From a virus: a DNA stretch of 24,638 bases. Location: positions 1-24,638 of IMG/VR virus record IMGVR_UViG_3300021425_001862. One strand, 5' to 3'. Below are positions 5,798-15,042 of the stretch, piece after piece (the stretch's first letter is position 1; every line of letters begins with the position of its first letter). The position numbers and the translations under genes are program-made. Under the pieces are notes generated by a model. It was not told where the DNA came from. It ran no database searches and saw only the letters and a list, made by a program, of their open reading frames with translations.

Positions 5798-6439
5798 TTA
5801 ATTTAAGCTTTCCCAAAGATCCATGTCAGTCTTATAGAAATCCATAATGTTATTTTTTAACTCTTTATTTAAAACTACTGTTTTATTATAATCGTAATCC
5901 CGTTTATTATAATAAGTATATTCAGTTGGTTTTACGTAACAAACATTATCAGATATCCACTTAAAAAAATTAGTTTCGAAACCATTTTCAAATTTCCATA
6001 GTTTTGTATCATGGTTTATAAAATTTTTCTGGAAGACAAACCAATTATTATTATAATTTTTTACTCCCTCAAACATAATCATATAGTTAGTTTTAGTGAA
6101 TCTAAATCTTACTTTCTGTTTATTCATGAAATAGTTAAAATAATCTTTACTATCAAGCTTATCAAATCCTGGAAGATCACTTATTAACTTCGATGCTGAA
6201 ACAAATCTTGATACAGGATTTCTTATAATTGAAAAATTATTTGGAAGTTTTTTTAATTTGTAATAATGCAACGCTTCATTATAAGTAAGATGTATTATTT
6301 CTTTCATATTAAAATATACATAATCATGCTTAGCAGGACTCCAGCCATTAGCATGTATTAATTCACTTACATATCTACCACCTGTTCTAGGAATGTGGCT
6401 AAAATATAATTCATCTTTTAATTCTTTATTCCATAACAT
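5798..6439 (-). CDS. Sulfotransferase-like protein
   Basis: 213 aa from the ATG at 6437-6439 (a TTG four codons upstream lies next to a terminator U-tract without an SD and is rejected). Residues 13-23 (F-S-H-I-P-R-T-G-G-R-Y) match the 5'-phosphosulfate-binding loop of PAPS-dependent sulfotransferases, and R73-N-P-V-S-R-F the 3'-phosphate-binding motif, so the cofactor site seems intact. The acceptor is unknown; surface glycans or lipids are usual for this family. The gene is strikingly AT-rich and Asn/Lys/Tyr-rich compared with gp43, which suggests later acquisition. It lies just after a strong terminator with no promoter seen between, so it may depend on read-through. Confidence 0.65.
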   Translation of the reverse strand: MLWNKELKDELYFSHIPRTGGRYVSELIHANGWSPAKHDYVYFNMKEIIHLTYNEALHYYKLKKLPNNFSIIRNPVSRFVSASKLISDLPGFDKLDSKDYFNYFMNKQKVRFRFTKTNYMIMFEGVKNYNNNWFVFQKNFINHDTKLWKFENGFETNFFKWISDNVCYVKPTEYTYYNKRDYDYNKTVVLNKELKNNIMDFYKTDMDLWESLN

Positions 6440-6453
6440 AGCTTTTTCCAATT

Positions 6454-7720: not shown

Positions 7721-8260
7721 TTAAATATATGTAGAAGGATCTAGTCCTTCTATACCATGTGAGAATCCTACACGTGGTCCATATGGTTCTGATAAGTGAT
7801 GCTGATTCCTAGGAACATACACCAAATCACCTGGATATAATCTTCTAGATTCTATTTTTTCTTCTTTATTTTTCCACATAGACCATTCAACGCTACCGAC
7901 AGCCTGTAAGTAAATAACATCCATTCGATCAGCATGCACTTTCAGACTTCCTCCTTTGTCAACAAACGAGAACCACATTTGATTATCTAAATGGGTTTTT
8001 CTTGAATTGATTCCATCGCTTAATGTGTCATTTAAAATATCTAATATTTTTCTAGAAAATGCAGGAAGAGATGGACGATCTTGGCATTTATATAAAACAC
8101 AGAATTCTTCCTCTGGGTATATTTGTAAGTGGTCTTTTGGTGCTTTATAGATAAAATCTATGGTATTTAGCCAATTATAATCACCAATTTCAATCTCATT
8201 TTGAAAATAACCGTATTCTTTATTACGAATACAAGAAATAAGTTTGTCTAAATTATTCAT
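7721..8260 (-). CDS. JmjC/cupin-like 2OG-Fe(II) oxygenase, second of a tandem pair
   Basis: 179 aa from ATG 8258-8260 (GGA upstream; overlaps the previous gene by 8 nt). A longer frame to 8284 has no usable SD. The double-stranded beta-helix core carries the facial triad H109-x-D111 and H155, with R163 in the P-R-V-G-F-S-H segment as a candidate 2-oxoglutarate anchor. L-Y-P-G-D-L-V-Y-V-P before the distal His is typical of cupin_8/JmjC hydroxylases of proteins or small molecules. It shares motif spacing with the gene upstream, so the two are diverged duplicates. It is the last gene of the regA operon. The substrate is unknown; hydroxylation of a phage or host protein, or of the product of the halogenase cassette, are both possible. 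Confidence 0.7.
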   Translation of the reverse strand: MNNLDKLISCIRNKEYGYFQNEIEIGDYNWLNTIDFIYKAPKDHLQIYPEEEFCVLYKCQDRPSLPAFSRKILDILNDTLSDGINSRKTHLDNQMWFSFVDKGGSLKVHADRMDVIYLQAVGSVEWSMWKNKEEKIESRRLYPGDLVYVPRNQHHLSEPYGPRVGFSHGIEGLDPSTYI

Positions 8261-8780
8261 TGTTCCATCCAAAAGAAAATCCAACTCTAGAAGAATCCGG
8301 AAGCGCTACATGAGGTATTCCTGTAGGGACATAAACAAAATCACCAGGAATTAATCGCTTGGAAAATGTGGATCTAGATGTCATTGTTTTTGTTTTATCA
8401 TCATAATCGCATCCATCTTCAAAAATCTTCCATGGCATTGATCCTTTTATCATAACAAAAAATACCTCCATGTGATCGCTATGAGGTGGTGAGGCAATAG
8501 CATTTGGACTAAAACCAGCATAACAGTGGCAAGAAATATCAGCCCTATTTAAGAATCTACCTAATTCAGTTTTTATATATCTAACAATATCAAAATCATG
8601 AGTACCGACATTAACAAATATCTTATGAGGATCTCTAGCTCTTTTGTTTCCATTTAAAAAAGACCGGTCAAAATAAGGAACTAACTGATCCCAGCTAGGA
8701 TATAGATCATCTGGCAATTCTAGTTTGCCATGAAATGCTTTACGGTTAGTTATAGCATCTCTTAATTCTTCTGGTAGCAT
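8253..8780 (-). CDS. JmjC/cupin-like 2OG-Fe(II) oxygenase, first of a tandem pair
   Basis: 175 aa. H100-S-D102 and H157 form the Fe(II) triad, and R165 in S-R-V-G-F-S-F-G corresponds to the likely 2OG-binding arginine. L-I-P-G-D-F-V-Y-V-P-T-G-I-P-H matches the distal-His motif of JmjC/cupin_8 enzymes, and the W-K-I-F strand lies at 117-120. The length suits a minimal catalytic domain. The start codon overlaps the regA stop (TAATG at 8778-8782), so it is translationally coupled to replication genes. Together with its downstream paralogue it may act as a heterodimer. Metal and cofactor prediction is fairly safe; substrate is not. Confidence 0.72.
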   Translation of the reverse strand: MLPEELRDAITNRKAFHGKLELPDDLYPSWDQLVPYFDRSFLNGNKRARDPHKIFVNVGTHDFDIVRYIKTELGRFLNRADISCHCYAGFSPNAIASPPHSDHMEVFFVMIKGSMPWKIFEDGCDYDDKTKTMTSRSTFSKRLIPGDFVYVPTGIPHVALPDSSRVGFSFGWNNE

Positions 8781-9151
8781 TACTTATTACCAATGTTATA
8801 CTTCGGACATAGCTCCCACTGATTCTTTTCTTTAAATGGAAGAATCTTTATAAGACGTAAAGGTGCGCAGTTAGCAGCCTTATCACTATTTTCAATTGTA
8901 ACAAGACCCCAGTCACTCATAAGAGTGGCAATGGTATTCCGTCTTTGAATATCTGTTTCTTCTAGATTTGCTTTTTTACCGTCTAACATAAACAGCTCTT
9001 TGAAATGTACAATGAAGTACCGCCCTTGTTTATGTAGGATATGGCATGATTGGTATAGCTTCTTATCTTTACGAGATGCAACACCAATACGTGTTAATGT
9101 TTCACGAACTTTCAAGAAGTCATCTGGTTCATTCAGAGTAACTTCCAGCAT
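8780..9151 (-). CDS. regA: RegA translational repressor
   Basis: Sequence-specific mRNA-binding protein that blocks initiation on early phage mRNAs, often including its own. From the ATG at 9149-9151 the product is 123 aa and aligns end to end with T4 RegA (122 aa): M-L-E-V-T-L-N-E-P-D-D-F-L-K-V, then L-Y-Q-S-C-H-I-L, Y-F-I-V-H-F-K-E-L and the C-terminal C-P-K-Y-N-I-G-N. A GTG 13 codons upstream (9188-9190) extends the frame into gp62 but adds residues absent from T4; GGAG lies 10 nt before the chosen ATG. As in T4, it follows gp62. Confidence 0.93.
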   Translation of the reverse strand: MLEVTLNEPDDFLKVRETLTRIGVASRKDKKLYQSCHILHKQGRYFIVHFKELFMLDGKKANLEETDIQRRNTIATLMSDWGLVTIENSDKAANCAPLRLIKILPFKEKNQWELCPKYNIGNK

Positions 9152-9167
9152 GTCAGCTGGACTCCAT

Positions 9168-9554
9168 TCAACGATTACTTGTTCTTCCACCTTTGCTCAC
9201 CTTCTGTTTTATTATAGTTAATTGTTCAGGTGACAGAAGTGACAAGACTTGTCTAGCTTTCTCGTTGCTGTATCCATAGTACTCTTTGATCACTTCAATA
9301 TCACTCTCAGTTTGTGGTTTTACCCATTTCGAAAATCTTTTACGTTTACGAACTATATTTATCAAAAAATGATATTGAAGCTTTGAGTCTAGGTGGTGAT
9401 ACCGATTCATGACATTTGCCAGTCCTACAGTATCTGCGAAGTAAGATAAAGAACGATTTACCATAAAGGCTGGATATGCTTTTTCATCTTGGTCATCATT
9501 CATTATATCTTGTTTAGTATAGTTTATACTTGTTACATAATCAAAAGGATTCAT
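9168..9554 (-). CDS. 62: Clamp-loader small subunit gp62
   Basis: 128 aa. With gp44 it loads the gp45 clamp. The start M-N-P-F-D-Y-V, the D-D-Q-D-E-K-A-Y-P-A-F-M-V-N-R-S-L-S-Y segment (21-39) and I-V-R-K-R-K-R-F-S-K-W are characteristic of gp62 from marine T4-like phages; T4 gp62 is longer (187 aa). It has no ATPase motifs, as expected. The gene directly abuts the glutaredoxin stop (TAA-ATG), not gp44: the usual partner lies about 3.7 kb upstream, beyond the halogenase cassette. Equal synthesis of the two subunits must therefore work through a longer transcript than in T4. Confidence 0.9.
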   Translation of the reverse strand: MNPFDYVTSINYTKQDIMNDDQDEKAYPAFMVNRSLSYFADTVGLANVMNRYHHLDSKLQYHFLINIVRKRKRFSKWVKPQTESDIEVIKEYYGYSNEKARQVLSLLSPEQLTIIKQKVSKGGRTSNR

Positions 9555-9860
9555 TTAAATTCCTTGTTCAATTCCACTATCGGACCATGGCCAGTCTTGT
9601 TGATCTAATACATCAGCTATTATATCATATAATTCACCTGATGTATACTCTTGTGTGTTAGTTTTTTTGTTAATATGCACTTCTCCAACATATAATTGTG
9701 GAACAACTCTATGTCCCTGTTCTTTCATAAAATCTAATGCTTTCGAGTCTTGTTTAATATTGATAATTTCATATTTAATATTTTTTTCATCTAGCATTGA
9801 TTTCATTAAATCACAAAATGGGCAGTTTGGCTGTGTATATAATTTTATGTTCTTTTGCAT
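9555..9860 (-). CDS. grx: Glutaredoxin
   Basis: 101 aa thioredoxin-fold disulfide reductase. Dithiol active site C13-P-F-C16 after the first beta strand, cis-proline V53-P54-Q, and the C-terminal S-G-E-L-Y-D-I helix that contacts glutathione. T4-like phages often carry a glutaredoxin to reduce ribonucleotide reductase, but no RNR gene is in this window; here it sits at the end of the halogenase cassette and before gp62. The SD AGGAG is 5 nt before the ATG and overlaps the end of the 206-aa gene. Function is clear, partner is not. Confidence 0.92.
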   Translation of the reverse strand: MQKNIKLYTQPNCPFCDLMKSMLDEKNIKYEIINIKQDSKALDFMKEQGHRVVPQLYVGEVHINKKTNTQEYTSGELYDIIADVLDQQDWPWSDSGIEQGI

Positions 9861-9861
9861 T

Positions 9862-10482
9862 TTAACTCCTTAAATTTTCTAAGAAATTTAGAAAAGATTT
9901 ATCTATTTTTTTCTCAGGTTGCCATGCATTAAAGTAATGTACATTTTGCCGTATTCCTTTTATCAACATATCAAGCTCAGTGTAAAGATCGTAACCATAC
10001 CATCTTTTAGCGCGATGTCTTCCCATTATAAACTTTTGTTCATTATTAACTGCATCTACATGTCTTGTAAAAAACATAGTATCAATGCCATGGCTTTTTA
10101 ATATAGGTGCTAAATGTTTAGCATACATTTTATGTTCTTCTGCTACAAAAGAAAATTTTAATGGATTGTTTTTCTTATCAATTTTATATTGTCGCACATA
10201 ACATCTTGCTACATTAGTTGGTAATTGTGAATGTGTAGTAATAAAGAATCCATATACTGGTTTATCATTTTCTAACCATATTATTGCATACTTAAATTTA
10301 AGGTTTTTTAATTGTTCATACGTATATGGATTATCAATAAGACTTTTTAATTGTACATCATTATCTTTTTTATCGACCACAACATTCCAAATAAATTCGT
10401 CTAGATAATCATCAGCATGATTGTCAGTTATATACAATTCATAATTTGCATATTTACCATTAGCTCTTTTACGTAAATACAT
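9862..10482 (-). CDS. 206-aa protein of unknown function, halogenase cassette
   Basis: I do not recognise this protein. It is 206 aa, AT-rich and Lys/Asn/Tyr-rich. The middle (K-Y-A-I-I-W-L-E-N-D-K-P-V-Y-G-F-F-I-T-T, about 64-83) looks like successive beta strands, followed by V-A-R-C-Y-V-R-Q-Y and a helix before H-G-I-D-T-M-F-F-T-R. This order loosely resembles acyltransferases of the GNAT type (strand, strand, helix), but no clear acetyl-CoA loop (Q/RxxGxG/A) is visible. It lies 5 bp after the ANL ligase stop and shares its transcript. If it is an acyltransferase it could take an adenylated or thioesterified acyl group from the ligase; this is speculation. Confidence 0.55.
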   Translation of the reverse strand: MYLRKRANGKYANYELYITDNHADDYLDEFIWNVVVDKKDNDVQLKSLIDNPYTYEQLKNLKFKYAIIWLENDKPVYGFFITTHSQLPTNVARCYVRQYKIDKKNNPLKFSFVAEEHKMYAKHLAPILKSHGIDTMFFTRHVDAVNNEQKFIMGRHRAKRWYGYDLYTELDMLIKGIRQNVHYFNAWQPEKKIDKSFLNFLENLRS

Positions 10483-10487
10483 CTTTA

Positions 10488-11489
10488 CTACGCTGCTGAA
10501 ATAACAATTTTTTGATTTCTCTTTACTTTTCTTAAATTATCGTCTACTTCAATATGATCGACCTTTTTAGGTACTACATCGTATGCACATTTGTGTTCAT
10601 TTACAAACATTTTTGTATTCATGTTGCCTGTATAATAAACAACACATTGATTATGGACTTTACGACAAAGTGCTAATTCAGCACCACTTTCAATAGCAAC
10701 CTTCTCAATCTGCTCTGGATATACTCTATCGCCGCAATTTTCCATTTTAAACGCATTATGCTTTCTTCCAGCAAAATAAAATTCGCCGTTGTCTGCGTAT
10801 TCAATTAAGTCTCCACTATACCACCATTCATCTTGATCTTTGTATTTGCATACCCACTCAATAGAACCATCTTCATGATTTTCATTTTTGTAATCAATCA
10901 TTGGATTAATATCATTAAAGTGATATATGTCCTGTTTTTCAGTAGACATAATTAATGGTGGTACCTCTGTACTACCATAAGCAGTATTTACTTTTTGCGC
11001 GCCTTTAGATCTTAGATCTTCCATCATTCCGTTTGGTGTAACATCACTGCCTACTTGTACTTGCTTCATATTACTTAAGTCAAGGTTTTTCCATTTTTTA
11101 TGGCGATGCCAAGTTTTCCAAACATTAGGTAGAATAAGTGTATGAGTAGGATTTATTTCTTTTATTCTATCAGGGTAATTTGCAACTGTTGTTTCAATGA
11201 ATACATCGCATTGAGCGAGAGTGCATGGATATAAACTCATTGATGTAAAGCCAATACCACGTGGATTGTATAGTGCCATCATCGAGCTATTTTTTGTTAA
11301 TCCAAAATATTCAGCATTATGTTCAGCAATCTTTGTCATGAGTTTTGATGTATGCTTAAATGTTTTGGGTTTACCTGTTGTACCACTAGTACTAACAGTC
11401 ACATTCCAGTCATTTAAATAGTTGATAACCGCCGAACGGACATAATCATTATCGCTTTTAATATATTCAATACCATCAATATAGATCAT
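10488..11489 (-). CDS. ANL-superfamily adenylate-forming enzyme (acyl/aryl-CoA ligase-like)
   Basis: 333 aa. All main ANL motifs are present: P-loop S33-T-S-G-T-T-G-K-P-K42, A170-Y-G-S-T-E175 (A5), Y224-S-G-D227 (A7), G241-R-K (A8 hinge), and a C-terminal catalytic Lys candidate K327 in V-K-R-N-Q-K. These enzymes activate a carboxylate with ATP, then pass it to CoA, a carrier protein or an amine. The length is much below the usual 500-plus because the N-terminal subdomain before the P-loop is only about 30 residues, similar to short MenE-like or aryl-ligase forms. The ATG overlaps the halogenase stop (ATGA at 11486-11489), implying coupled synthesis. No carrier protein with a D-S-L site was found nearby. 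Confidence 0.82.
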   Translation of the reverse strand: MIYIDGIEYIKSDNDYVRSAVINYLNDWNVTVSTSGTTGKPKTFKHTSKLMTKIAEHNAEYFGLTKNSSMMALYNPRGIGFTSMSLYPCTLAQCDVFIETTVANYPDRIKEINPTHTLILPNVWKTWHRHKKWKNLDLSNMKQVQVGSDVTPNGMMEDLRSKGAQKVNTAYGSTEVPPLIMSTEKQDIYHFNDINPMIDYKNENHEDGSIEWVCKYKDQDEWWYSGDLIEYADNGEFYFAGRKHNAFKMENCGDRVYPEQIEKVAIESGAELALCRKVHNQCVVYYTGNMNTKMFVNEHKCAYDVVPKKVDHIEVDDNLRKVKRNQKIVISAA

Positions 11490-13165
11490 TTTCTTCCTGC
11501 CTGGGCTTCCTCTAATATTTCTTTACTAGTAGCTCCATCATAGATATGCTTTTTACAATAATCGTAAATGTTAGGTGCATAATCAGATAAAGCATTTGCT
11601 TTTGTTTTTAAATAGTTAAAGTCAATTTCTGCTAATGGTAGCAATTCTGGATCAACATTAAGTTTACAAATATCATCATCCCATCTATCTAAATAGTGAT
11701 GCTGTTGAGCCCACTGATAGTCTAAGTAAAGATTACGACCTAGATAGCCACTAGGATTACGGTATTCAAACCAATTTTTTTCTACATGGTTGTTTTCATC
11801 ACCATACTCTCCCCATTTTTTCCACATAGGGGAATCTCTACGTTTGCTTAATGTAAAATGATAAGAGACAAAATCACCAGTTTGTTTTTCTAACTTTTGA
11901 ATTCGACGAGACAATGCTTGCTTCGCTCGCTCTGGTATAATTCTATCTTCATACTTTGTAATAGCTTGATCTATCATTTGTATACCAGATTGAGCTATAT
12001 AAATGCTATTAGCTTCCATAGGATCAACAAATCCTTGGGCCATGCCAACACCAACAACGTTTTTAACCCATGAATCCTTATAATAACCCTGTTCCCACTG
12101 TATAAGTTTAGGATCACGAAGCATATTATAACCATCCCAGTATTTTATAAAACGTTCTCTTGCATCACTAGGATCTTCTGAATTAGCATCAAATATATAT
12201 CCGGATCCCATACGACTATACAAAGAAATAATAAAGTTCCAACCGTTCTTTTGAGCATGGCTTTGTGTATATGGTTTCATTTCTGTGTGTGGATCTTTGT
12301 ATTCAATAGGACACACCCAAACGCTTTGAGTAGGTAGATGATTCATTTTAACCCACTCTGGATTCATTCTTTTCAAGAGTAGTCTATTAAAACCGCTACA
12401 ATCAATAAACAAGTCACCTTTTAATTTTCTACCATCCTCTAGTTGTAAATATTTCACGTAACCATCTTCGTCTTTTACAACATCAGTCATATGACCTTCA
12501 ATGTGAGTTACACCCAGGGGTAAGGCAATTTGATCTCTCACTATTAGTGGAAATCTCTCAGCATCTACATGCCAAGAATATGGCTTCCAATCGCCTACGA
12601 GACAATCTTTGTTGTTATCATACGGACTTTTATTTTTAATAGCAAAATGATATTGTTCAAAACAATATTCAGATGTTTCCCACCAATTGTACTTTTTCTG
12701 TCGTAACAATTCTAACCAGTAATCAAAGCTCTTATGGTCTACACCAAATCTGCCATCATTATCATAAAAAAAGTCTTCAGTTTTGAATCCACTATAGAAA
12801 GAGTTTTTAAATGCTTTATCTCTCCATGTGTATGTAAAAGAATAAAATTGTTGTTCCCACGGCGGACATTTCCAATGATCAGTTACATGTGGTTTAGGAT
12901 CTTCAGTATTCCAAGCACTGAACATATTTCCGTGCTTATAAATGCTATGAGTCCCCCGCATCCATTTTTCTTCATCAACCTCTAACCATTGTAGCATATC
13001 GCCTAGTTGGGGAATTGTACTCTCCCCAACTCCTAAAATAGGAACTTGAGGTGATTCGGCTAATTGAATATTTAAATTGGGATGTCGTTTTTTAAGAAGA
13101 GCTGCTGTAAACCAACCTACAACCCCTCCACCTAAAATTGTAACTGTTTTAACTTTACTTTTCAA
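11486..13165 (-). CDS. Flavin-dependent (tryptophan-type) halogenase
   Basis: 559 aa FAD-dependent halogenase. FAD Rossmann motif G12-G-G-V-V-G17; G45-V-G-E-S-T near the isoalloxazine; catalytic Lys candidate K77 in S-I-Y-K-H-G (PrnA K79); F-I-D-C-S-G-F (253-259). The family W-x-W-x-I-P motif reads W309-N-F-I-I-S314, and the halide-loop region P-(L)-E-S-T-G reads P383-M-E384-A-N-S387, so both signatures are altered. FADH2 and halide should give HOX, used via K77 to halogenate an electron-rich substrate. A phage homologue, VirX1 of cyanophage Syn10, is a known iodinating halogenase. The start is TTG (13163-13165), with AGGGG 7 nt upstream, overlapping the stop of a 33-aa membrane peptide; it is coupled downstream to the ANL ligase. 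No flavin reductase is in the window. Confidence 0.88.
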   Translation of the reverse strand: MKSKVKTVTILGGGVVGWFTAALLKKRHPNLNIQLAESPQVPILGVGESTIPQLGDMLQWLEVDEEKWMRGTHSIYKHGNMFSAWNTEDPKPHVTDHWKCPPWEQQFYSFTYTWRDKAFKNSFYSGFKTEDFFYDNDGRFGVDHKSFDYWLELLRQKKYNWWETSEYCFEQYHFAIKNKSPYDNNKDCLVGDWKPYSWHVDAERFPLIVRDQIALPLGVTHIEGHMTDVVKDEDGYVKYLQLEDGRKLKGDLFIDCSGFNRLLLKRMNPEWVKMNHLPTQSVWVCPIEYKDPHTEMKPYTQSHAQKNGWNFIISLYSRMGSGYIFDANSEDPSDARERFIKYWDGYNMLRDPKLIQWEQGYYKDSWVKNVVGVGMAQGFVDPMEANSIYIAQSGIQMIDQAITKYEDRIIPERAKQALSRRIQKLEKQTGDFVSYHFTLSKRRDSPMWKKWGEYGDENNHVEKNWFEYRNPSGYLGRNLYLDYQWAQQHHYLDRWDDDICKLNVDPELLPLAEIDFNYLKTKANALSDYAPNIYDYCKKHIYDGATSKEILEEAQAGRK

Positions 13166-13263
13166 CTTAAAACCCCTAAGATAAATCCGTGTAATACTTT
13201 AAATAGAACTGCATCCTGATACAGCAACAACCATAATATAACTATTCCAACAGCTAATCTCAT
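13162..13263 (-). CDS. 33-aa membrane micro-protein coupled to gp44 and halogenase
   Basis: This frame fills the apparent gap between gp44 and the halogenase. The ATG (13261-13263) overlaps the gp44 TGA (ATGA), and its TGA (13162-13164) overlaps the halogenase TTG start (TTGA). The peptide begins M-R-L-A-V-G and has a hydrophobic stretch of about 13 residues (2-14, I/V/L/W rich), a short Y-Q-D break and a second hydrophobic part ending F-I-L-G-V-L-S. It could be a one- or two-segment membrane peptide. Double stop/start overlap strongly suggests translation. Its role is unknown: membrane anchor or substrate for the halogenase, or simply a coupling leader. Confidence 0.55.
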   Translation of the reverse strand: MRLAVGIVILWLLLYQDAVLFKVLHGFILGVLS

Positions 13264-14195
13264 TTAAAATCCACCTGTGCCATAATCTCTGTCATACATG
13301 CAACCATATTTAGTTCATGGTCAGCTACAAAAGCATCTTTGTACTGATAATCAGCTAGGATCAATACCAATTGTGGAATGCTTTGTGGCTGAACAAGCTC
13401 GTTCATATTATCGTATAAACCTCTTAGAATAGCAGTAGTATCTATATCCATGTGGTTCACGACCCATGATCTCATCTTTTTAAAGTCTTTAACCTTTAGA
13501 TGGCTGGCGAGTTCAGTAAAGCTGCCACTGCCAGTCCCACTATCACTAGGATTAATGCCGCTACCAGTAAGTCCAATACGCTGTCCTTCATTGAGAACTC
13601 TCCTCCAGTCTGGGGCGTATTTCATCACAAGGTCAGCTACTGCCTTTGGTTCATACGCCACATTTTCTTGTCCTAATATGTATATAAAACGCTTATAGAA
13701 TTGCGCTGCAAGATCTGCTAAATCTTTCTTTGATGTATTAAATTCATAGACACCACACCGAGAGTGGAGTGGTTCAATAATACGATTCTTAAAGTTACAT
13801 GTCAAAATAAACCGACAGTTATTACTGAACTCTTCTATGAATCCCCGCAGGGCAGGTTGTGTAGACTGGGGGTTAAGATAGTCAGCCTCATCGAGAATAA
13901 CTACCTTGTAACCACCCTGCAGGGAAACACTAGAGGCAAACTGTTTGATCTTGCCTCGTAGTGTATCGATGTTTCCTTCCTCTGATCCGTTAATAATAAT
14001 ATAGTCAAGGCCAAGTTCATTGCAAATAGCTTTAGCTACTGTTGTCTTGCCAAGACCTGCAGTGCCAGAGAACAACATATTTGGTAGTTCTCCGCCATCA
14101 ACGATTGCTTGGAAAGTGTCTTTCAATTGTGTTGGTAGAATGGCGTCAGCCACAGTCTGTGGACGATATTTTTCTACCCATAAAAAATCTTTCAT
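13260..14195 (-). CDS. 44: Clamp-loader ATPase gp44
   Basis: 311 aa from ATG 14193-14195 (T4 gp44 is 319). AAA+ motifs: E-K-Y-R-P-Q-T near the N-terminus, Walker A G44-T-A-G-L-G-K-T-T52, Walker B V-V-I-L-D-E-A-D (98-105), and the S-R-C (145-147) arginine-finger motif. It loads the gp45 clamp with gp62. An upstream in-frame extension to 14234 overlaps the preceding gene and adds residues not present in T4; the chosen start lies 4 nt after that gene's stop. A Ser/Gly/Thr-rich linker (T-G-S-G-I-N-P-S-D-S-G-T-G-S-G-S) near residue 210-228 is unusual and may be a flexible insert. Confidence 0.94.
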   Translation of the reverse strand: MKDFLWVEKYRPQTVADAILPTQLKDTFQAIVDGGELPNMLFSGTAGLGKTTVAKAICNELGLDYIIINGSEEGNIDTLRGKIKQFASSVSLQGGYKVVILDEADYLNPQSTQPALRGFIEEFSNNCRFILTCNFKNRIIEPLHSRCGVYEFNTSKKDLADLAAQFYKRFIYILGQENVAYEPKAVADLVMKYAPDWRRVLNEGQRIGLTGSGINPSDSGTGSGSFTELASHLKVKDFKKMRSWVVNHMDIDTTAILRGLYDNMNELVQPQSIPQLVLILADYQYKDAFVADHELNMVACMTEIMAQVDFK

Positions 14196-14199
14196 AATA

Positions 14200-15042
14200 T
14201 TATCTTTCATAAACAGGATGCCACGTATAACCATCCATCAAACCAAGATCTTCACATAACTCATCAGTGAATGTACCATCTACTCTGAGAGTATAACGAA
14301 ATGCATTCTCTGGATCAACCCCATGGTAGTCTCTATTATTAAAGAAATAGCTTAAAGCATTTGGCTCAAGATATGTTTTCTCTTTCTTTACTTCATCCCA
14401 AATATAACTTGGTCTGCTTTTTGTAAAGAACAAATTGATATTATGATCCTTATGAGCAGTTACTTCAGCATCTCTGTGTGCAATAACTGGTGCACCAGGG
14501 AAAGTAGTAAAAAATAAAACTCTACCAATATCTTTAAATGGTAGAGAGTGTAGATATTCAACAAGCATCGGAAAGTCTTTGGCTGCCTCTGCCCATTGAC
14601 CTCCTTGGGTCTTTTTATAGAAGTTATTTTCTTTAAGATATAAACCAAAAAACCAAGGGATGGCACCGTTCAGTGCATAGTAGATATATCGGTAAGCTGC
14701 CTTATAATCCTTTTTTATAAGTTCACCTAGTACTTCTATATGTTCAGGATAATCCTTTTCTATAGTATCCATAATAGAAGTCCATGATCTAACACCTAAC
14801 GACTGTTCTTCCTCAGGGGTAATAGCACCAAAGATCATTCCCTGTTTATAGAACCTCTCATTCAATGCCAGTCCTTTACAGCATTCAATATGAAGTTCTT
14901 TATTCAGAGAATGATCTATAAATTTATCCATTGATATAATAGGAGAACGGCTTTCACCTACTCCTTTGATACCATATTCCTCATAATCAAAATGAGGAAT
15001 TGATGCGCCCTTTATTACATTAATGGATTTTACTTTTTGCAT
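14200..15042 (-). CDS. Putative 2OG-Fe(II) oxygenase
   Basis: 280 aa. Candidate iron ligands are H189-R-D191 (or H197-K-D199) and distal H240 in Y-H-G-V-D-P, with R249/R253 in F-R-Y-T-L-R as the likely 2OG anchor; the strand I-N-L-F-F between them fits a double-stranded beta-helix. About 170 N-terminal residues are not recognised and are mostly helical. Similar proteins occur in marine T4-like phages. The gene sits between the small gene after gp45 and gp44, with the ATG overlapping the upstream stop (TAATG), so it is embedded in the clamp/clamp-loader operon. The substrate could be a small molecule or a protein; which of the two HxD motifs binds iron is undecided. Confidence 0.65.
   Translation of the reverse strand: MQKVKSINVIKGASIPHFDYEEYGIKGVGESRSPIISMDKFIDHSLNKELHIECCKGLALNERFYKQGMIFGAITPEEEQSLGVRSWTSIMDTIEKDYPEHIEVLGELIKKDYKAAYRYIYYALNGAIPWFFGLYLKENNFYKKTQGGQWAEAAKDFPMLVEYLHSLPFKDIGRVLFFTTFPGAPVIAHRDAEVTAHKDHNINLFFTKSRPSYIWDEVKKEKTYLEPNALSYFFNNRDYHGVDPENAFRYTLRVDGTFTDELCEDLGLMDGYTWHPVYER

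Follow-up and report, generated by a model that had tools for sequence, protein, structure and literature searches.

What is a halogenating enzyme doing between two replication genes of a virus? The question is raised by IMG/VR record IMGVR_UViG_3300021425_001862, a 24,638-nucleotide (nt) virus fragment, which in its entirety is referred to here as the window. In the region 9,555-13,263, a flavin halogenase (HAL), a short ANL ligase (LIG), a protein of 206 amino acids (aa) (u206) and a glutaredoxin (GRX) lie between gp44 and gp62, the genes for the two clamp-loader subunits. We propose that HAL, LIG and u206 are a mobile three-gene enzyme module, occupying a cargo junction in the genome of a T4-like marine phage and making a halogenated N-acyl compound, a proposal to which we give an even chance of being right.

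The open reading frame (ORF) calls in the window give the following minus-strand order, with the extent of the module on the last line:

13260-14234, minus strand: gp44, clamp-loader large subunit, the left flank of the module (phrog_168, E 3e-113)
13162-13263, minus strand: 33-aa membrane-type peptide, a resident of the gp44 downstream junction (conserved peptide in relatives)
11486-13165, minus strand: HAL, flavin-dependent halogenase with a TTG start (PF04820, E 1.4e-85)
10488-11489, minus strand: LIG, short-form ANL ligase of 333 aa (PF00501, E 1.6e-14, residues 34-184 only)
9862-10482, minus strand: u206, predicted GNAT fold (AlphaFold and Foldseek; no Pfam or PHROG family)
9555-9860, minus strand: GRX, glutaredoxin, a resident of the gp44-gp62 junction (PF00462, E 2e-16)
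9168-9554, minus strand: gp62, clamp-loader small subunit, the right flank (phrog_225, E 1.6e-45)
9862-13165, minus strand: the inserted HAL-LIG-GNAT module, about 3.3 kilobases (kb), delimited by comparison with relative L147 and by composition

The genes are tightly packed. The gp44 TGA is overlapped by the ATG of the peptide (ATGA), the peptide stop and HAL start share TTGA, and the HAL stop and LIG start share ATGA. LIG and u206 are 5 nt apart and u206 and GRX 1 nt apart, while GRX and gp62 have no spacing (gp62 starts at 9554). This gene order and the 4-nt overlaps had been described in an earlier reading made from the letters alone (the sequence-only reading), and are borne out here.

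The limits of the module were established from related phages. Among 80 IMG/VR contigs with a close gp44, 68 have both gp44 and gp62. The two genes abut in 14 of the 68, six carry HAL-LIG-u206 between them, and 48 have other content, often GRX alone or GRX and one gene; GRX is the sole sizeable gene between gp44 and gp62 in many relatives. The nearest relative, L147 (gp44 92% identical), has the order gp44-peptide-GRX-gp62, without the three enzymes. Its DNA alignment with the window spans gp44 and the whole peptide, ends at the start of HAL, and restarts within GRX and gp62. The peptide is found directly after gp44, at 72-94% identity, in L147, L149, L178, L181 and L212, where no HAL or LIG was seen, and in L052, together with the module. 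The module is also somewhat richer in AT, with a G+C content of 33.3% compared to 37.6% in the rest. The peptide and GRX are therefore residents of the junction, and HAL-LIG-u206 is a module that has been inserted (or, in L147, deleted). The sequence-only reading had proposed a five-gene cassette. Its three enzymes hold together, but the peptide and GRX are not members, because both occur at the junction in phages without the enzymes, and the five-gene version was rejected.

In isolate phages the same junction carries 2-oxoglutarate (2OG) oxygenases, Dam or SpeD, and it is nearly empty in Phage C48C1. The space between gp44 and gp62 serves these phages as a site for cargo of many kinds. The module shares this site with the SpeD, Dam and 2OG-oxygenase cargo but is a multi-step set, whereas that cargo is mostly single genes. 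The idea that the cassette is wired into replisome translation did not survive as a specific claim, given the variety of the cargo, the phages in which gp44 and gp62 abut, and the occurrence of related modules by tail-fibre-like genes or elsewhere. The module is probably expressed with the replication operon in the window phage; the best reading is that its replication setting is incidental. Junctions of other phages include GRX fused to a C-terminal domain, HAD-phosphatase-like by eye (L151:7942-8982 and L164:7930-8940), and a desaturase or TauD-like gene accompanied by a possible GNAT-type gene but by neither halogenase nor ligase (L148:7936-9283 and L168:7915-9563).

The evidence that the enzymes belong together comes from five protein-based IMG/VR scans, in which near-identical loci were merged to give 66 contig groups. 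Of 39 groups with HAL of this subfamily, 36 have LIG no more than three genes from it, and directly adjacent in nearly all. In the remaining three the contig ends at HAL, so that all 36 assessable groups are paired. For LIG, 53 of 63 groups have a gene known or likely to be GNAT-type no more than three genes away; of the remaining ten, seven are interrupted there by a contig edge, and in L058 a GNAT-like gene lies at a distance of five genes. The label "GNAT-type" has several grounds: u206 and f11 were modelled, f110 and the L069 gene are homologous to f11, and f80 and f180, which were not recognised by Pfam, have only a matching sequence pattern. The order HAL-LIG-u206-GRX between gp44 and gp62, a co-occurrence that the sequence-only reading had suggested looking for, recurs in about 30 contig groups (some ended by the contig edge), far exceeding chance. 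The suggestion that the halogenase and a carboxylate-activating ligase form a unit is thus upheld, and u206 is a plausible third step. Five genomic contexts were distinguished:

Context I, about 30 groups: gp44-gp62 junction, with optional desaturase (a frequent extra gene, of the fatty-acid type), 2OG-type and AhpD-like genes between
Context II, 25 groups: after a tail-fibre-like gene, with radical-SAM and glycosyltransferase-like genes around
Context III, three groups: near ThyX and phosphoribosyl pyrophosphate synthetase
Context IV, L070, L071, L073, L227 and L228: full-length ligase, HAL, GNAT-type gene, FabF-like ketosynthase and desaturase
Context V, two contigs: LIG beside a possible GNAT

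At least four unrelated contexts contain the set, and they differ in gene order and in the GNAT family present. Tail-fibre-like genes directly precede LIG and the GNAT-type gene in contexts II and V (for example L088:8489-11576), where 2OG-oxygenase-like genes are also among the neighbours. Five of the 25 context-II groups carry a divergent halogenase (26-33%) adjoining LIG. Since LIG-GNAT is mostly without a halogenase in the context-II fragments, the ligase-GNAT step does not depend on halogenation, and we consider the ligase-transferase pair to be the core and the halogenase a frequent partner. Within context IV (the L070 cluster is at 8601-14512), AhpD-like genes are present in L070, L071 and L073, and an acyl-carrier protein is encoded in the L071 and L073 records, tens of kb from the cluster. 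A small DUF6356 membrane protein adjoins the ligase in contexts II and III (L114:9605-9823 and L046:12688-12954).

The sequence-only reading had named the occurrence of these genes singly at unrelated loci as evidence against a joint pathway. Such single halogenases are found in the wider family, where those of HTVC008M, S-B64 and Syn10, unlike HAL, have neither an ANL ligase nor an annotated acyltransferase adjoining, but they are not found in this subfamily. On the ligase side, LIG accompanied by a GNAT-type gene but by no halogenase is found in context II.

Maximum-likelihood trees were calculated for HAL and LIG. The window HAL groups with those of L021 and L047 (support 100/99), and next with context III. 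The window LIG groups with L002 and L044 (100/97), inside a larger clade with nine context-II ligases (99/97), and the L021 LIG falls in a different clade, so the two trees conflict with high support. HAL and LIG have thus moved between phages independently of each other, with the pairing kept through reassortment. The conflict, despite constant pairing, favours a functional tie over shared descent of one block. Nei-Gojobori dN/dS ratios are 0.03-0.06 for HAL (0.034 against L021), 0.07-0.08 for LIG and 0.07-0.17 for u206; in several pairs the synonymous sites are close to saturation. Purifying selection acts on all three genes. Strong purifying selection, mobility between phages like that of accessory genes, and a position in the replication operon that suggests early or middle expression would all fit a host-takeover or counter-defence device, whether directed at a metabolite or signal of the host, which halogenation or acylation would inactivate, or producing an inhibitor that acts on the host or on rival phages. 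The same core adjoins structural genes in other phages, however, suggesting late expression there, and we regard such a device as improbable.

HAL is, as judged from its sequence, a PF04820 flavin-dependent halogenase with predicted halogenating activity. It matches 30 halogenase sequences in the PDB, including Thal (E 4e-60) and VirX1 (E 5e-53). The FAD-binding GxGxxG is present as GGGVVG (G12-G17), with glycines invariant in 11 relatives. The catalytic residues in PrnA are Lys79 and Glu346 (PrnA numbering); HAL Lys77 and Glu384 align to the corresponding Thal residues, and both are invariant across relatives. At the WxWxIP position HAL has WNFIIS and its relatives WNFII[STP], which keeps the first Trp and the Ile, replaces the second Trp by Phe, and leaves the Pro variable. 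The HPF motif, tabulated as the tryptophan-binding motif of tryptophan halogenases (PMC8269204), was not found in HAL, where the region reads DHW. We do not classify HAL as a tryptophan halogenase, and since it lacks HPF, tryptophan is not an obvious substrate. Its identity to isolate-phage halogenases is about 23-30% among the matches listed. It shares with VirX1 and other T4-like cyanophage halogenases (phrog_2928) the PF04820 family, a Kyanoviridae-type T4-like marine phage background and a non-tryptophan motif region. Because the listed isolate-phage halogenases are less than 30% identical, and the HAL subfamily has a ligase partner, it is placed outside the close VirX1 subfamily.

LIG is without most of the N-terminal subdomain: its match begins at position 170 of 384 in the Pfam model. 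For this reason it is described only as a short ANL-type ligase. It retains the P-loop TSGTTGxP, YG[SA]TE, SGD and GR, and these motifs (P-loop, A5, A7, A8) are invariant or nearly so in 16 relatives. Lys321 is invariant in RK[VI]xRxQ, matched by eye to GKIxRxQ of the full-length L070 ligase, and likely occupies the position of the A10 catalytic lysine. The LIG profile matches the ANL structures Cfl, FadD8 and luciferase. No match to the LIG or u206 gene was found among isolate phages, where a context-II ligase gave two weak matches only. A bacterial source of LIG was sought in GTDB contigs, and none of the 41 pattern matches was confirmed.

u206 has no Pfam or PHROG family match. Its AlphaFold model is of fair confidence (pLDDT 79.8, pTM 0.80) and has GNAT topology. 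The top Foldseek matches are acyl- and acetyltransferases of the GNAT type (E 1e-5 to 1e-4, probability 1.00, TM about 0.5); the matches also include BjaI, protein acetyltransferases and, at low rank (TM 0.37), the phage Mu DNA-modification enzyme Mom. A model of f11 likewise has a GNAT fold, and matches FeeM and acyl- or aryl-homoserine-lactone synthases that depend on coenzyme A (CoA). Searched against the PDB, the f11 profile gave TAL-effector repeats (E 8e-14), which were taken as a repeat artefact. Sequence homology of u206 to f11 and f110 is not detectable, and all that they have in common is a GxxQ pattern near the C-terminus, seen by eye. The model predicts u206 to be a GNAT-fold acyltransferase-type protein. 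Since the partners of LIG are different sequence families, of which both modelled ones are GNAT-fold, what has been kept is an acyltransferase role and not any single gene.

The recurrence of the module in several phage groups at unrelated places suggests that the viruses either produce a halogenated compound or attach one. In the scheme that we propose, LIG would adenylate a carboxylic acid, either aryl or fatty acyl, the GNAT-fold protein would move the acyl group onto an amine, and HAL would chlorinate or brominate an electron-rich aromatic ring, in either the acyl or the acceptor part. The outcome would be a halogenated N-acyl compound formed during infection. The scheme draws on gene content, association across contexts, selection, catalytic-type residues and the predicted fold. 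From these we infer the order of the steps, the form of the acyl donor (CoA, adenylate or carrier), the substrates, and a product that is a small molecule. The desaturase and ketosynthase genes suggest that some phages use a component of fatty-acyl or polyketide-like character. A wider proposal, that lytic marine phages carry and exchange a natural-product pathway in which the ligase-acyltransferase core and halogenase would produce, in the course of infection, a halogenated N-acyl compound acting as signal or inhibitor, with a ketosynthase and desaturase added in one group (acyl-carrier protein elsewhere in the genome), is one that we hold tentatively, as possible but less than evenly balanced.

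Several observations weigh against the proposed scheme. The ligase is only 215 aa, without the P-loop and C-terminal part, in L029 (2910-3557), L041 (38-685) and L054; an intact HAL remains in L029 and L054, and an intact GNAT-fold gene beside the shortened ligase in L029 and L041. The R/QxxGxG/A loop for the acyl-CoA pyrophosphate was not seen in the alignments of u206 or f11, for which reason u206 is called GNAT-fold and not a CoA-dependent GNAT, and the GNAT-fold TM-scores are only about 0.5. In L112 and L134, LIG has no recognised GNAT-type gene nearby. Searches of whole records gave no further full halogenase in most other context-II groups, and no carrier protein was found in the gp44-gp62 phage records examined. 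The shortened ligase does stay an open frame in the module, with pN/pS of 0.31 between L029 and L041. Together with the preponderance of LIG-GNAT pairs without HAL in context II, and the many unrelated genes housed at the junction, the three groups with shortened ligase could mean that HAL, LIG and the GNAT serve separate pathways, and are neighbours only since such sites gather auxiliary genes. Against this, HAL of this subfamily is never without LIG where the flank is present, across contexts, gene orders and the tree conflict. Random cargo would not yield so constant a pairing, and we consider separate pathways unlikely.

The tail-fibre contexts make a macromolecular target a serious rival. 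LIG and the GNAT-fold protein might acylate a virion or tail-fibre protein, a host protein or phage DNA, and HAL might modify the attached group, to give a decorated polymer. The position of the context-II and context-V pairs after tail-fibre-like genes, amid glycosyltransferase-like, radical-SAM and 2OG-oxygenase-like genes, is consistent with this, as are the matches of u206 to protein acetyltransferases and Mom. On the other hand, the modules of contexts I, III and IV are not beside fibre genes, context IV holds fatty-acid-type enzymes, Mom is low-ranked, and no known base-modification gene was noticed beside the module. We judge a decorated polymer to be somewhat unlikely, and retain a small halogenated N-acyl compound as the working proposal.

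Among known systems, the N-acyl amino acid synthase FeeM and the CoA-dependent acyl- or aryl-homoserine-lactone synthases BjaI and RpaI, each with an acyl-activating partner, resemble the module in their logic: an acyl group is activated, and a GNAT-fold enzyme then passes it to an amine. The modelled likeness is at the level of fold only (f11, and u206 for BjaI), without sequence similarity, and the module differs in its very short ANL activating enzyme and the added halogenase. Natural-product clusters such as pyoluteorin-type PltF/PltA and bmp use an ANL enzyme and carrier-bound halogenation. They have an ANL ligase and flavin halogenase in common with the module, which by contrast has no carrier protein adjoining, has a GNAT-fold transferase instead, and is phage-borne.

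Other genes in the window may be mentioned. The fragment contains regA (phrog_242, E 3e-60), directly after which are two tandem JmjC_2/cupin-type oxygenase genes (7721-8780), the first of them kept beside regA in relatives. Immediately upstream of gp44 is a weakly Asp/Asn-hydroxylase-like protein (14200-15042), and a protein 28% identical to it is encoded at L103:13008-13814, two genes from the L103 halogenase. There is also a cysteine-dioxygenase-like gene at 1722-2171 (phrog_7851) and a sulfotransferase-like gene at 5798-6451 (phrog_3347).

As to the host, a psbA-type gene was absent from 13 of 13 IMG/VR records tested, several of which are fragments, and was found in the S-B64 control. A non-cyanobacterial host is therefore more likely.

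The sequence-only reading knew VirX1 as the only familiar phage halogenase. This was too narrow: T4-like marine phages commonly carry homologues (73 records matched), and a halogenase has been reported in 20 of 153 cyanophages (PMC10452541). Halogenase homologues in marine T4-like phages are thus already known; of the module with ligase and GNAT-fold partner we found no description in the literature searched. Phage halogenases have hitherto been known mainly as single orphan genes without known natural substrate. The conserved ligase and GNAT-fold partner are a strong hint at the target of the halogenase, and as only three small proteins are involved, the question is testable. If the proposal is true, lytic ocean viruses would be producers of small halogenated molecules or of halogenated decorations, which are not products that such viruses are usually credited with.

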